This document shows, piece after piece, positions 28,973-34,692 of a stretch of 64,000 nt of DNA (positions within the stretch are counted from its first letter, which is position 1; each line of letters starts with the position of its first letter). The translations under genes and the position numbers were made by a program. The notes below the pieces were generated by a model. It saw only the letters and a program-made list of their open reading frames with translations, did no database searches and was not told where the DNA came from. Source of the DNA: Psychrosphaera sp. B3R10 (GTDB taxonomy: Bacteria > Pseudomonadota > Gammaproteobacteria > Enterobacterales > Alteromonadaceae); assembly GCF_018861025.1 (NCBI RefSeq), contig NZ_JAHKQH010000028.1, forward strand, positions 51,591 through 115,590, given 5' to 3'.

Positions 28973-30271
28973 ATGAAGTTGCCTTCTCTCATTTTGGCCT
29001 GTGTTTTAGCCGTTTTTGTCACTGCATGTAGCCAGGCTCAGGAAGTTAAAAGTTTGATGGGAGACCTTCCCATCGCCGTAAAAACCGACAAACTCAGTGT
29101 GCAGCAAAGTAGTATTGTTTTAGGACTTGGTTGCTTTTGGGGGGCGGAGAAAAAATTTGCTCTATTACCGGGGGTTATCGATGTTAAATCGGGGTATGCC
29201 GACGGACGTGGTTTTGATGCTACTTATAGAAACATAACGCAACGTAAACATAAATTTAACCCAGACAATTATGCCGAAGTAATTGAAGTTACGTTCAACC
29301 CAGAACAAATATCTTTGTCATTAATTTTTAGACACTTTTTTGAATTGCACGACCCTACGCAACAAAACCGTCAAGGTAACGACATTGGCACCCAATACCG
29401 ATCTACGATTTTGTATAACTCGCCTGCAGAAAAACAAGTTGCGTTAGAGGTGCAAGCACAATACCAGACGTTATTAACAAACGCGGGGTTCGATAAAATA
29501 ACAACCAAGCTAGCACCTCTTGATAAATTTCATGCTGCGGAAACTTATCATCAGGATTATTTAGTCAAAAACCCGAACGGATATTGTCCAGACCATTCAA
29601 CCGGAGTGCGGTTTGATAAGACTAAAGATAAATCTCGAGAGGTTGATAATACGGCCATACTGTCAGGCCAGCATATCGTGATCATTGATTCTGAGTTTTG
29701 CCCTTATTGTGACTTATTTAAAAAAGACGTTGCCAATAATTACTCTGGTTCGGTGCCGATGCATTTTCGTAAGGCCATGGAACTCGAAGGTCTTGACGTT
29801 ACCACCCCAACTTGGGCGACACCAACCATATTATTTATGCAGGACGGCGTCGAACAATACGGTATTCAAGGTTATGTGAATAACAAGGATTTTTATAAAG
29901 CCTTAGGTTATTTTAAATTGGGTAAATCTGAAGCATTTAACGTTGCATTTAACGAAGGTACTGACTCACGTTATTGTAAACAATATGAATTATTTAAAAA
30001 TACGCCTGACGGTAAATTTATCGACAAATTATCTGGCATTGCCTTATTTGACACAGACGATAGATTTAACTCTGGTAGCGGTTGGCTGTCGTTTACCAAA
30101 CCGATTGAGGGTACCGTCACGTATGTCGAAGACAATCGCTTTGGAATGCAACGAACAGAAGTTAGGGCGAAAGATTCGGATATTCATTTAGGCCATGTAT
30201 TTGATGACGGTCCTAATGGCAGCAAACGTTATTGCATCAATGCCACGGTTTTGGACTTTGTCGCAGACTAA
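28973..30271 (+). CDS. msrAB: Lipoprotein MsrA-thioredoxin-MsrB methionine sulfoxide reductase
   Basis: The product (432 residues from the ATG at 28973, GGAG eight bases ahead) joins three domains. A lipoprotein signal ends at Cys19 (FVTAC). MsrA spans about 45-215 with catalytic C54 in GCFWG and a C-terminal NPNGYC, reducing methionine-S-oxide. A thioredoxin-like domain at about 230-315 has the redox motif C243-P-Y-C246 and a TPT cis-proline loop. MsrB at about 325-430 has the catalytic C421 in RYCIN and HLGHVFDDGP, reducing methionine-R-oxide. Both CxxC zinc pairs of typical MsrB are missing. The middle thioredoxin could recycle both reductases. It should be anchored in the periplasm and repair oxidised envelope proteins. 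Confidence 0.92.
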   Translation: MKLPSLILACVLAVFVTACSQAQEVKSLMGDLPIAVKTDKLSVQQSSIVLGLGCFWGAEKKFALLPGVIDVKSGYADGRGFDATYRNITQRKHKFNPDNYAEVIEVTFNPEQISLSLIFRHFFELHDPTQQNRQGNDIGTQYRSTILYNSPAEKQVALEVQAQYQTLLTNAGFDKITTKLAPLDKFHAAETYHQDYLVKNPNGYCPDHSTGVRFDKTKDKSREVDNTAILSGQHIVIIDSEFCPYCDLFKKDVANNYSGSVPMHFRKAMELEGLDVTTPTWATPTILFMQDGVEQYGIQGYVNNKDFYKALGYFKLGKSEAFNVAFNEGTDSRYCKQYELFKNTPDGKFIDKLSGIALFDTDDRFNSGSGWLSFTKPIEGTVTYVEDNRFGMQRTEVRAKDSDIHLGHVFDDGPNGSKRYCINATVLDFVAD

Positions 30272-30345: not shown

Positions 30346-30987
30346 TTAACAGCGATTAAATACCACAAAAAAGTTGTTAGCTGGCATATCCGACAATGTT
30401 TCAATTTCCAGTTTGCCTTTCGATAATTTCACAACGTCTTCTAAATCCATTAAACCGCCATGACCTTCCGACATTAACCAGTCATTAAACTCTTTGTTTG
30501 ATTCGGTAGTAAACTTATTGTTTTGCTTGAACGGTCCATAACATACCCACTTCTGGCCAGTCGCCAATGCGCCGCAGATCTGCTCAACAAGCTGCTTTGC
30601 ATGGGCACGACTAACAATATGTAAAACATTGCTGGTATAGATAGTATCAAAGTCACCGGCTGGGAATTCATCATCTCCAATTGTATATTCAATCGGTTTT
30701 AAAAAATTAATGATCCCAACTTTCTGAGACGCTTCCCACCACTGATTTAGTCGCTCAAAGTTTTCCTTAACTTCTGTCGGTTGCCAGCGTAACTGGTAAC
30801 AATGTTGGCTTAAATGAATAGCCTGTTGCCCAGTACCTGAGCCGATTTCCAATACTTTGCGTTCGTTAAATTCTAGCTCAACCCATTTATCTAAAATTGG
30901 GCCTTTGTTATTTTCCGCCGCTGTTAACGTCGGTAAATCGCTAAATACATCCGCTGCATGTGACTGTGGTGGTTGAATTATTGTCAT
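30346..30987 (-). CDS. DUF938 SAM-dependent methyltransferase
   Basis: The 213-residue protein is a class I methyltransferase of the DUF938 family, with the SAM-binding [18 protein letters not shown] at about 45-62, the [13 protein letters not shown] motif IV region near 113-125 and WVCYGPFK near 150. Its substrate is unknown. The ATG overlaps the stop of the second metH gene as ATGA, which makes it the last gene of the metA-metH-metH operon; that suggests, without proving, a role tied to methionine or SAM supply. Confidence 0.85.
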
Positions 30988-33614
30988 TCTAAATTTGGAC
31001 CTAACCAGGTTTCAGCTTGTTGCTCATCCCAGCCCTTAAGTTCTGCATATTCTTGCATCTGCGCAAGATCGATTTTAGATACAGCAAAATATTTGGATTT
31101 CGGATGAGAAAAATACCACCCTGAAACCGACGCACCCGGCCACATCGCATAACTCTCTGTCAACGTCATACCAATTTTGTTTTCGACATCAAGTAACTGC
31201 CACAGCTTAGCCTTTTCTGTATGTTCAGGGCAAGCTGGATAACCTGGTGCTGGACGAATTCCTTGATATTTCTCTCTAATTAAGTCGTCATTGGTAAGTG
31301 ACTCGTCTGGTGCATAGCCCCAATATTCTTTACGAACCTGATGATGTAAGTACTCGGCAAGCCCTTCTGCTAAGCGGTCAGTAACCGCTTTAACCATAAT
31401 ATTATTATAGTCGTCATGTTCTTTTAAATACTTATCCGCTAACTCATCAACACCAAATCCAGCTGTAACGGCAAACGCACCTACGTAATCGGCTAGACCA
31501 GATTTCTTAGGCGCAATAAAGTCGCCCAACGCATAGTTTGGCGCATTATTACGGGTTTGGATTTGCTGGCGTAAATTAAATAAACGAGTAACAATCTCAG
31601 TTCGAGACTCATCTTTATATACTTCTATCGTTTCTTCATCTGAGTTTGCTGGGAACAAACCAAACACGGCTTTTGCTTTCACGGTGCCTGACGCAATAAT
31701 TTGGTCAATCATGTCGTTTGCATCGTCAAAAACTTTCTGAGCTTGTTCGCCAACAACTTCGTGTTTCAAAATTGACGGGTATTTACCACTGAGTTGCCAA
31801 GTAAGAAAATAAGGCGTCCAATCTATAAACGGTCGAATGTCTTCTAACGAGATAGAATCCCAAACATGTACGCCCATTTTTTTCGGTACTGGCGGAATGT
31901 AATTTTGCCAATCACCGTCAAATCGATTTGCTCTCGCTTTGTCAAACGAAATAAACTTAGTATTGTCACGTTTACGCTGGTGTTGCTTGATCACTGTTTC
32001 GTATTCTTTCGCTACCTGAGTCATGAAATTAGGTCGTAATTCATCACTTAACAAGTTAGACACAACCGAAACACTGCGGCTTGCATTTGGCACGTAAACC
32101 ACAGGATGTTCGTAATTTGGATTAATTTTTATCGCAGTATGGGCACGTGAGGTTGTCGCGCCTCCGATTAATAATGGTAAGTCTAACCCCTGACGAGTTA
32201 ACTCTTTAGCGACATGCACCATTTCATCTAAAGATGGTGTGATCAAACCTGATAAACCTATGATATCAACCTTTTCTTTTATGGCCGTATCGATGATTTT
32301 TTGGCACGGTACCATAACGCCTAGGTCGATAACTTCATAGTTATTACATTGCAGGACAACGCCGACAATATTTTTACCTATATCATGTACGTCACCCTTC
32401 ACGGTAGCCATTAGAACTTTACCGTTGGTGTAACCGTCTTCTTTTTCTTCTTCAATATATGGGTTCAAATAAGCCACGGCTTGTTTCATAACACGTGCGG
32501 ATTTCACCACTTGTGGTAAAAACATCTTACCTGCGCCAAACAAGTCACCAACGACATTCATACCATCCATTAATGGACCTTCGATGACTTGCAGTGGTCG
32601 GTCGTAAAATTGGCGAGCGGCTTCCGTATCTTCTTCAATAAACGTCGTTATACCTTTAATTAAGGCATGTTCTAAACGTTTTACGACGTCCCAAGAACGC
32701 CATTCTTCGGTTTCAACTTCAACTTTTGAACCATCCCCTCGATACTTAGGTGCAAGATCGAGTAAACGCTCTGTGGCATCGTCGCGACGATTTAGTATAA
32801 CGTCTTCTACCGCTTCACGAAGTTCATCAGGAATGTCGTCGTAAACCGCGAGTTGGCCGGCGTTAACAATCGCCATATCCATGCCCGCTTGAATTGCGTA
32901 ATACAAAAACACAGAGTGCATTGCTTCACGAACAGGATTATTACCACGAAATGAAAATGATACGTTTGATAACCCACCAGACACTTTTGCATGTGGTAGA
33001 TGAGTTTTAATGTCCCGTGTGGCTTCGATAAATGCAACGGCGTAGTTATTGTGTTCTTCAATTCCGGTGGCGACAGCAAAGATATTAGGATCAAAAATAA
33101 TGTCCTGCGGTGGGAAACCGATCTTACCTACCAATAAGTCGTAAGCGAGTTTACAAATTCGGAACTTTTCTTCTCGAGTTTCTGCTTGACCATCTTCGTC
33201 AAAGGCCATTACAACGACAGCGGCGCCGTATCGTTTTAATTTTTTAGCGTGTTCTAAAAATTGTTCTTCACCTTCTTTCAACGAGATGGAGTTTACAATT
33301 GCTTTACCCTGAACACATTTTAATCCCGCCTCAATGACTTCCCATTTAGATGAATCTAACATGATAGGCACACGTGCGATGTCCGGCTCTGAGGCAATAA
33401 GGTTACAAAAACGGGTCATCGCGGCAACTGAATCTAACATGGCTTCATCCATGTTGATGTCGATAACTTGAGCGCCGTTTTCGACTTGTTGACGTGCCAC
33501 ATCAAGCGCGGTTTCGTAATCCCCTTCGAGGATGAGTCGCTTAAACATTGCCGAACCGGTTACGTTAGTTCGTTCACCGACATTAATAAATCTGCTTACT
33601 GATTGCGTGGTCAT
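30984..33614 (-). CDS. metH: Methionine synthase, folate, B12 and activation part (split MetH)
   Basis: The 876-residue protein starts right at the folate-binding domain ([18 protein letters not shown] at 10-27), then the B12 cap and the B12-binding domain with D408-x-H410-x2-G413 (the DxHxxG lower-ligand motif; H410 coordinates cobalt), and ends with the SAM-dependent reactivation domain (about 555-876, ending in a region with [12 protein letters not shown]). It lacks the homocysteine domain, which is encoded by the gene 10 bases upstream in another frame. Together they equal one full E. coli-type MetH (355+876 against 1227). The start ATG at 33614 has a modest AGAAG ahead. Confidence 0.96.
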
Positions 33615-33624
33615 GGTAAAACTT

Positions 33625-34692
33625 CTATACGTTAAATGCTTCTAATCCTGACAGGCGCATAAGTGCGGCTGCAGGTCGAGGTGTTCTTGGCTGCTGACCA
33701 GATACCACATCTACAAATGCTTGGATGTGCTCCGGTGTTGTTCCGCAACAACCGCCAACGATATTTATTAATTTGCTCTGCGCCCACTCACCAATGTGTT
33801 CAGCCATATCTTGGGCGTCCAAATCGTATTCACCAAACTCGTTCGGCAATCCTGCATTTGGGTGCACAGAAACAAAACATTCTGCAAATGACGATAACTC
33901 GTCTACATATTGGCGTAACAAATCTGGACCTAGTGCACAATTTAGCCCAATTGAAATTGGGTTTACATGACAAATTGAATTATAAAATGCTTCCGTTGTC
34001 TGCCCTGACAAAGTACGACCTGAAGCGTCAGTAATGGTCCCCGAAATCATTATTGGCAAACGATGATTTGCTTCTTCAAATGCAACTTCAACAGCGTAAA
34101 GTGCTGCTTTAGCATTCAACGTATCAAATATAGTTTCAACCAAAATTAGATCCGCGCCGCCAGCCATTAGGGCTAGCGTGGCTTTGGTATAGTCAGCAAC
34201 CAAAGCATCAAACGTGATGTTACGAAAACCGGGGTCGTTAACATCTGGAGAAATAGAAGTTGTTTTAGACGTTGGCCCTAAAACACCAGCGACAAATTTC
34301 GGTTTATCTGGGGTTGCCACTTGATCACACGCTTCGCGTGCTAATTTAGCTGCTTCAAAGTTAATTTCATCGGCGAGACTTTCCATCCCGTAATCGGCCA
34401 TCGACGCAACAGTTGCATTAAAACTATTGGTTTCAATAATGTCAGCACCCGCTTCAAGGTAAGCTATGTGAATGTCTTTGATCACTTGAGGTTGCGTCAA
34501 TACTAATAAGTCATTGTTGCCGCGCACGGATGTCGGCCAATCTTTGAATCGCTCGCCACGATAATCATCTTCTTCAAACTTATACTCTTGGATCATTGTG
34601 CCCATTGCACCGTCGAGAAAAAGTACTCTTTGTTTTAACATTGATGTTAATAATTCTGATTGGTCTGGGCGGTAGTCGCCTTTAATAGTCAT
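33625..34692 (-). CDS. metH: Homocysteine S-methyltransferase part of split MetH
   Basis: The 355-residue product is the N-terminal module of cobalamin-dependent methionine synthase. It binds homocysteine through zinc held by C252 (GLNCALG) and C315-C316 ([10 protein letters not shown]), all present. Other family marks are [13 protein letters not shown] at 25-37 and [12 protein letters not shown]. The last residues [10 protein letters not shown] align with the linker that in single-chain MetH continues straight into the folate domain; here a TAG follows. It starts 20 bases after the metA stop. The two subunits must work in trans with the partner gene just downstream. Confidence 0.95.

Follow-up and report, generated by a model that had tools for sequence, protein, structure and literature searches.

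How could one exported polypeptide carry two methionine sulfoxide reductases (Msr) together with the thioredoxin that would serve them both, and which repair system of the cell envelope might it stand in for? The question is raised by a gene in a window of 64,000 nucleotides (the whole stretch of DNA that was analyzed) from Psychrosphaera sp. B3R10. The gene, msrA-trx-msrB, occupies positions 28973 to 30271 on the plus strand, with a GGAG six bases upstream of its ATG start codon at 28973 and a stop codon at 30269-30271. Its 432-residue product is a predicted lipoprotein in which MsrA, a thioredoxin fold and MsrB follow one another in that order. An exported three-part enzyme of this kind, with the recharging domain in the middle, should repair both isomers of oxidized methionine.

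Domain organization and conserved cysteines

The domain order given in the initial annotation was borne out by Pfam hits, AlphaFold2 models and fold matches. Residues 1-19 (28973-29029, plus strand) form a signal peptide and lipobox, recognized by eye and by pattern scan: VTAC at residues 16-19 follows an N-terminal hydrophobic stretch, C19 would be lipidated, and a serine stands at +2, in agreement with the lipoprotein signal that had been called earlier. The MsrA domain (about residues 45-217; 29105-29623, plus strand) matches Pfam PMSR (PF01625) over residues 48-205 (E 7e-49, 166.4 bits against a cut-off of 23.7) and exceeds the cut-off of the MsrA model TIGR00401 (158.4 bits against 108.1). 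It contains the nucleophile C54 (GCFWG) and the resolving cysteine C205 (NPNGYC), and the comparison of structures gave it matches at Z 22-24. The thioredoxin-fold domain (about residues 230-316; 29660-29920, plus strand) carries C243-P-Y-C246 and a candidate cis-proline, P284 (ATPT). Its match to Pfam Thioredoxin_2 (PF13098, residues 234-311) is barely over the cut-off (27.3 bits against 27), with E-values of 4.9e-6 for the whole protein and 1.3e-7 for the domain alone. The MsrB domain (residues 319-432; 29927-30268, plus strand) matches SelR (PF01641, residues 319-430, E 1.1e-30, 106.4 bits against 24.9), barely exceeds the MsrB model TIGR00357 (113.4 bits against 113.05), and has the nucleophile C421 in an RYCxN motif and a proposed resolving cysteine, C335.

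The mature part after C19 holds only six cysteines, at 54, 205, 243, 246, 335 and 421. They were followed in an alignment of 43 three-domain rows, made up of the window protein, 29 of the 80 loci returned by one scan of genome contigs, and 13 loci from the window's order; L013, L015, L035-L042, L044, L049, L053, L056 and L061 were left out as truncated, at contig ends or without the middle domain. C54, C205, C243, C246 and C421 are kept in 43 of 43 rows, which rules out a chance reading of the open reading frame and upholds the earlier statement that the catalytic cysteine of MsrB is retained. Both zinc-binding CxxC pairs of MsrB are gone, as had been noted; their positions are occupied by DKLSG and KDSDIH. 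The position of the resolving cysteine in SGCGW-type MsrBs, which is the customary one in MsrAB and PilB, is S369 in the window protein.

The middle thioredoxin-fold domain

A full-length AlphaFold2 model based on 40 homologues had a mean pLDDT of 88.0 and a pTM of 0.57, values that make each domain confident but not the mutual placement of the three. Folded alone with 38 sequences, the middle domain reached a pLDDT of 91.9 and a pTM of 0.84. The initial annotation had staked its reading beforehand on a thioredoxin fold for residues 230-315, and the separately folded domain has that fold. Thioredoxin_2 (PF13098) was matched by all 38 family sequences of the domain.

Among solved structures, the middle domain is matched best by SoxS, a periplasmic thioredoxin from Paracoccus pantotrophus (3d4t, 3dml), though others are nearly tied with it. 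SoxS ranked first by three methods: in the profile search (3d4t, E 5.5e-7) it was followed by the two-domain oxidoreductase 1j08 (E 6.2e-7), whose best single domain scored 16.0 bits against 32.2; in Foldseek (E 3.3e-5) by the thioredoxin mutant 2fch (E 4.3e-5); and in VIA-align (Z 12.4, rmsd 1.8-1.9 over 87-88 residues) by thioredoxins that reach Z 11.8 (6esx), a tie by the rule of that tool. Because the lead of SoxS over other thioredoxins is small, "SoxS-like" is used here only as a label for the nearest structure, with kinship unproven. SoxS is free-standing, whereas the middle domain is fused, and the identity between them is about 20-23%.

Comparison with known enzymes

PilB (MsrAB1) of Neisseria and Fusobacterium, described for its periplasmic form as Trx-MsrA-MsrB, has a thioredoxin domain whose recharging partner is DsbD in Neisseria and probably CcdA in Fusobacterium (PMC6210582, PMC12288474). 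PilB and the window protein both have three domains, one of them a fused thioredoxin domain, which is N-terminal in PilB and central (230-316) in the window protein. The MsrB resolving cysteine of PilB is given as Cys-440, with a CGWP signature (PMC6316033), while that of the window protein is proposed to be C335. Scores fell below the NCBIfam cut-offs both for PilB-type Trx-MsrA-MsrB proteins (NF010625, 233.5 bits against 522) and for bifunctional Msr B/A proteins (NF004042, 243.3 bits against 330). The window protein would work like PilB but, by domain order and by the NCBIfam cut-off, is not a PilB.

The central thioredoxin domain that had been said to set the protein apart from PilB is thus confirmed, but the order had already been named, as MSRA-Trx-MSRB, for archaea, and is said there to resemble bacterial fusions in general architecture (PMC6211008). 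The likeness to the archaeal proteins extends to the order, compared by name alone; the passages of that paper on this order give no cysteine analysis. It was the only open-access paper found to use hyphenated names such as MsrA-Trx-MsrB. A search for the same order across genomes, as the initial annotation had proposed, returned MsrA-Trx-MsrB from many of them, and a unique domain order, being also in print (PMC6211008), was rejected as a feature of this protein. The chemistry, too, is known already. In the open-access literature we found no paper that treats the bacterial fusion family, its middle domain or cysteine classes, or the rarity of the fusion in genomes with MsrP.

Two-domain MsrAB proteins (H. 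pylori, S. pneumoniae, H. influenzae) are without a thioredoxin domain; those of H. pylori (7e43) and S. pneumoniae (3e0m) have MsrA followed by MsrB and, like the window protein, no cysteines at the zinc positions. The operon of H. influenzae is described as encoding a separate thioredoxin and CcdA (PMC9404787). The MsrB of X. campestris (3hcj, 3hci) is zinc-type and free-standing, whereas that of the window is zinc-free and fused.

The second cysteine of the MsrB domain

C335 is well placed as a candidate resolving cysteine of MsrB, since its counterpart in the alignment is the cysteine of the PFC motif in X. campestris MsrB, an enzyme with a resolving disulfide; the suggestion made for this residue in the initial annotation is therefore plausible by alignment. 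A Dokdonella MsrB (L124) links the two proteins: it matches X. campestris MsrB 3hcj at E 1e-64 with the PFC cysteine aligned, and it is 39% identical to the window MsrB domain, with C335 on that same cysteine. Within the aligned residues 3-134 of 3hcj, the sole cysteine besides the zinc ligands and the nucleophile sits at the C335 position, and the window MsrB has the X. campestris-type layout, with a cysteine at the PFC position (C335) and none at the SGCGW position (S369). The disulfide of the X. campestris enzyme is described as joining the active-site cysteine to a resolving cysteine downstream of the N-terminal helices (PMC7475093).

MsrBs outside the fusion provide a background for these observations. 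Thirty-three loci were tried, most of them picked as good matches to the family profile; L044, L061, L141 and L151 gave no sequence by motif, leaving 29. Zinc cysteines are missing from 23 of the 29, a cysteine at the C335 position occurs in none of those 23, and 24 of the 29 have no cysteine at either resolving position. Alignments of the MsrAB structures 7e43, 3e0m and 5fa9 likewise show no cysteines at the zinc positions. The MsrB of PilB is zinc-free as well. Zinc-free MsrBs being common, zinc loss was rejected as a remarkable feature, and the weight that had been placed on it as unusual falls away.

Distribution of the fusion and its cysteine classes

Sources of the fusion family include Kangiella, Aliikangiella, SAR86, Dokdonella, Sulfurimonas, Halochromatium, Thiomicrorhabdus, Thiobacillus and Rhodocyclaceae. 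Among the matches listed, and counting the window's own genome each time, the full-length fusion was found in 24 of 147 genomes of the window's family, 14 of 197 of its order and 6 of 369 of its class; within the genus the fusion was present in four of five genomes, again among the matches listed. In another order of the same class (that of genome G253), 40 of 62 genomes contain a pair of thioredoxin and MsrB domains in which CxxC is intact; of these, 36 have all three domains in one frame, one (G732) has a frame break in MsrA, and three are without MsrA in frame. Three further genomes of that order have a degenerate thioredoxin part.

We compared 112 full rows, which include near-copies (L004/L084, L096/L159) and reduce to 99 at 95% identity; L189, L199, L226 and L227, which are partial, and L224, L225 and L229 were dropped before the count. 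The rows fall into three classes. Clade I, to which the window protein belongs, has both CxxC and C335 (49 of 112); clade II, which includes the protein of Halochromatium roseum (L016), has CxxC and threonine or serine at 335 (60 of 112); and three rows from one genus (L133, L205, L206) have C335 but no CxxC. No row among the 112 is without both. At 95% identity the classes number 45, 52 and 2, respectively. In a quick tree of MsrB, based on few columns, clade I, clade II and the group without CxxC each occupy one side of a branch (support 99, 92 and 98), and in the same tree, which is unrooted, the group without CxxC adjoins clade II.

The N-termini vary. A lipobox was found by a simple pattern in only 18 of the 112 rows, which speaks against the lipid anchor as a trait common to the family; 86 rows have a hydrophobic N-terminus and eight have neither. 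None of the three proteins without CxxC has a hydrophobic N-terminus. In clade I, L011 (Sulfurimonas) and L129 start almost at MsrA, seemingly with no export signal, and keep CPYC or CPFC.

The distribution is suggestive, and no more, of a C335 that is old in the family and disappeared from clade II, in which the nucleophile can be served directly by the fused thioredoxin, but persisted in the lineage whose thioredoxin site became inactive and whose protein turned cytoplasmic, in reach of ordinary thioredoxin. We word this history so cautiously because it concerns one event in one lineage, the tree is unrooted, and outside MsrBs often have neither cysteine. A stricter rule, that either the fused CxxC or C335 is required, was weakened by the 24 of 29 outside MsrBs with neither and by the confinement of CxxC loss to one lineage of three genomes. 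A single origin of the fusion is only suggested, with support of 91 in the quick MsrB tree of few columns and 13 in the MsrA tree.

Partial and broken forms

The modules of the fusion also occur in part. MsrA-Trx without MsrB was found in L036-L039, L041 and L042 (Guyparkeria, Thiodiazotropha and a Halothiobacillaceae metagenome-assembled genome) and in genome G588 (L224); a simple motif search of loci L036, L037 and L042 gave no MsrB-like frame of at least 100 aa. Trx-MsrB without MsrA in frame was found in L199, L226 and L227 (G699, G700 and G702, all of one genus), which are putative lipoproteins. Because both forms occur, the thioredoxin domain is seen to stay with either reductase. In L189 (G732), a break inside MsrA divides the fusion between two overlapping frames, through either an assembly error or a broken gene. 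A different fusion was seen in the Kangiella genome G198, where a frame of 424 aa (L126:1486-2760, minus strand) has a zinc-type MsrB at the C-terminus of another protein, which by eye we take to be a ketopantoate reductase.

These forms bear on what the middle domain and C335 do. SoxS, the closest solved structure, is described as acting on SoxYZ, in which it reduces false mixed disulfides (PMC10451225), and several members of the fusion family come, to judge by the record names, from sulfur-oxidizing genera; the middle domain could on those grounds be an independent envelope thiol reductase, SoxS-like or DsbC-like, that shares only the anchor with its neighbors and is not the Msr reductant. 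We regard this as very improbable: the domain always adjoins an Msr domain in the rows examined, the MsrA-Trx and Trx-MsrB forms included, its active site is lost only in the lineage that is also without an export signal, and the fused thioredoxin domain of PilB is described as recycling Msr sites (PMC6316033, PMC12288474). It has somewhat more in its favor, yet is still unlikely in our judgment, that C335 is a dispensable leftover and the fused thioredoxin domain attacks the sulfenic acid of C421 directly. Such an attack would be needed in clade II, whose 60 rows keep CxxC, have threonine or serine at 335 and, as aligned, no other MsrB cysteine, unless an outside thiol does the work; and a resolving cysteine at the known positions is not obligatory, since 24 of the 29 MsrBs outside the fusion have neither. 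Against the leftover stands the constancy of C335 in clade I. A relic cysteine would be expected to drift, but the rows with CxxC and C335 span two phyla and, because they form one side of a branch of the MsrB tree (30 rows, support 99), no loss of C335 is seen inside the clade. In 48 of the 49 rows C335 is the sole MsrB cysteine besides C421 (L164 has another at 362), and the three proteins without CxxC have it as well.

Genomic surroundings

A conserved operon was considered and rejected, as the neighbors in the window are not kept beside the fusion in relatives. Eight of them (AlaS, RecX, a membrane protein, a FemAB-like protein, DUF938, two MetH pieces and MetA) were not found in the loci compared first, bar one distant FemAB-like match at the edge of L034, and none was found in 14 loci of the same family, whose flanks reach no further than about 1.5 kb past the match. 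The FemAB-like acyltransferase (PF04339; 27618-28895, plus strand) sits immediately upstream of the fusion gene, 77 bases from it and on the same strand. On the minus strand, at 30984-34692, MetH is present as two adjacent open reading frames of 355 and 876 aa (named by eye), with 10 bases between them and not as one chain. A consensus scan gave no plus-strand promoter; on the minus strand it returned a single promoter hit, within the gene, and a single terminator-like site, neither in excess of what shuffled sequences give.

Relation to the molybdenum system MsrPQ

The main new result is that the fusion and MsrP rarely co-occur. MsrPQ is described as repairing both sulfoxide isomers in the envelope (PMC9404787), the same task that is expected of the fusion, but it is an unrelated molybdoenzyme fed by a membrane cytochrome subunit, MsrQ. 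Within the window's family, MsrP was over the cut-off in one of 24 fusion genomes and in 104 of 123 others, with fusions counted among the matches listed (Fisher p 2e-14, a value that carries no correction for ancestry, in a pattern much of which follows genera). The window's genome itself gave no MsrP match. In the order of G253, three of the 40 genomes whose pair is intact have MsrP, compared with none of the three with the degenerate form and 15 of 19 without the pair. Within a single genus (g258) the numbers are 3 of 19 fusion genomes and 11 of 13 without the fusion. Both systems occur together in four genomes (G687, G725, G733, G746). In two genomes, G588 and G626, the fusion match ends after the thioredoxin domain, and MsrP is present in both; no long frame was found in the stretch of G626 that was examined. 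We found no statement of this anti-occurrence in the open-access literature.

Genomes with neither system were searched further. Eighteen of the 147 family genomes have no fusion among the matches listed and no MsrP match at E 0.001. In eight of them (L232-L239) a single frame contains both the MsrA motif and a match to the MsrB profile, and its N-terminus looks hydrophobic by eye. For nine of the remaining ten genomes, one MsrB match apiece was examined; none has MsrA in frame, and one (G573, L243) has an export-like N-terminus. The tenth, G688 (88% complete), gave no MsrB match. About nine family genomes thus show no exported Msr in the hits examined. In G641, whose MsrA-MsrB frame (L240) looks exported, MsrP is matched only in part (C13:34860-35447, minus strand), and the matched stretch has three stops in frame.

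The fusion seems to be an envelope Msr system that is interchangeable and needs no molybdenum, and our reading is that several such interchangeable systems are distributed across these genomes. Shared ancestry alone, with no functional exchange, could produce a similar pattern: the family genomes are not independent of one another, and among those searched the fusion is held, in the matches listed, by only seven genera, mostly genus-wide. We nonetheless doubt that ancestry is the whole explanation. The anti-occurrence repeats in a second order (that of G253) and within genus g258, and the two truncated fusions (G588, G626) sit in MsrP-bearing genomes.

Proposed function and electron supply

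We consider it likely that the protein is an exported, lipid-anchored Msr for envelope proteins, in which C54/C205 act on Met-S-sulfoxide, C421/C335 act on Met-R-sulfoxide, C243/C246 of the SoxS-like domain reduce either, and DsbD recharges the latter, so that the whole does the job of MsrPQ. In Msr chemistry as described in PMC6211008, nucleophilic cysteines attack the sulfoxide isomers and become sulfenic acids. C54 of the MsrA domain would form the sulfenic acid on attack of Met-S-sulfoxide, to be resolved by C205, and C421 of the MsrB domain would do the same with Met-R-sulfoxide, to be resolved by C335. The C243/C246 pair would reach either disulfide and reduce it, and inner-membrane DsbD would in turn recharge that pair, as nDsbD does for PilB (PMC6210582). 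The fusion would in this way take over the job done in most relatives by MsrPQ.

A DsbD-like donor had been foreseen for this enzyme, and a DsbD of 616 aa is encoded in the same genome, with N-terminal and membrane domains by Pfam and a C-terminal thioredoxin part by eye. The other MsrA and MsrB of the genome, the latter zinc-type, are both short, and inspection by eye showed no export signal in either. The description of the enzyme as self-contained was too strong, because electrons must still be supplied from outside, probably by DsbD. By the +2 rule of E. coli, a lipoprotein with serine at +2 is sorted to the outer membrane. Because the serine at +2 points to that membrane, contact with inner-membrane DsbD would be awkward; the same problem of reach from lipoprotein to DsbD is discussed for PilB (PMC6210582).

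A wider reading, which we put forward tentatively and as somewhat less probable than its opposite, is that the fused thioredoxin and the MsrB resolving cysteine are alternative rechargers of one site. The MsrA-(SoxS-like)-MsrB family would then be a thiol-based, molybdenum-free system repeatedly exchanged with MsrPQ; the clade without a second MsrB cysteine would be resolved directly by the fused CxxC, and the lineage without the thioredoxin site and the export signal would rely on C335.

The three-domain forms with or without C335, the MsrA-Trx and Trx-MsrB forms and the form with a dead thioredoxin make up a natural series on how two reductases are served by one tethered thioredoxin. As a rule, a related bacterium has the fusion or else a molybdenum enzyme, unrelated to it, for the same repair, and rarely the two together. 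The rare co-occurrence with MsrP predicts that the fusion should restore envelope methionine repair in an msrP-deficient strain without molybdenum; if it does, two unrelated chemistries would occupy one functional slot.
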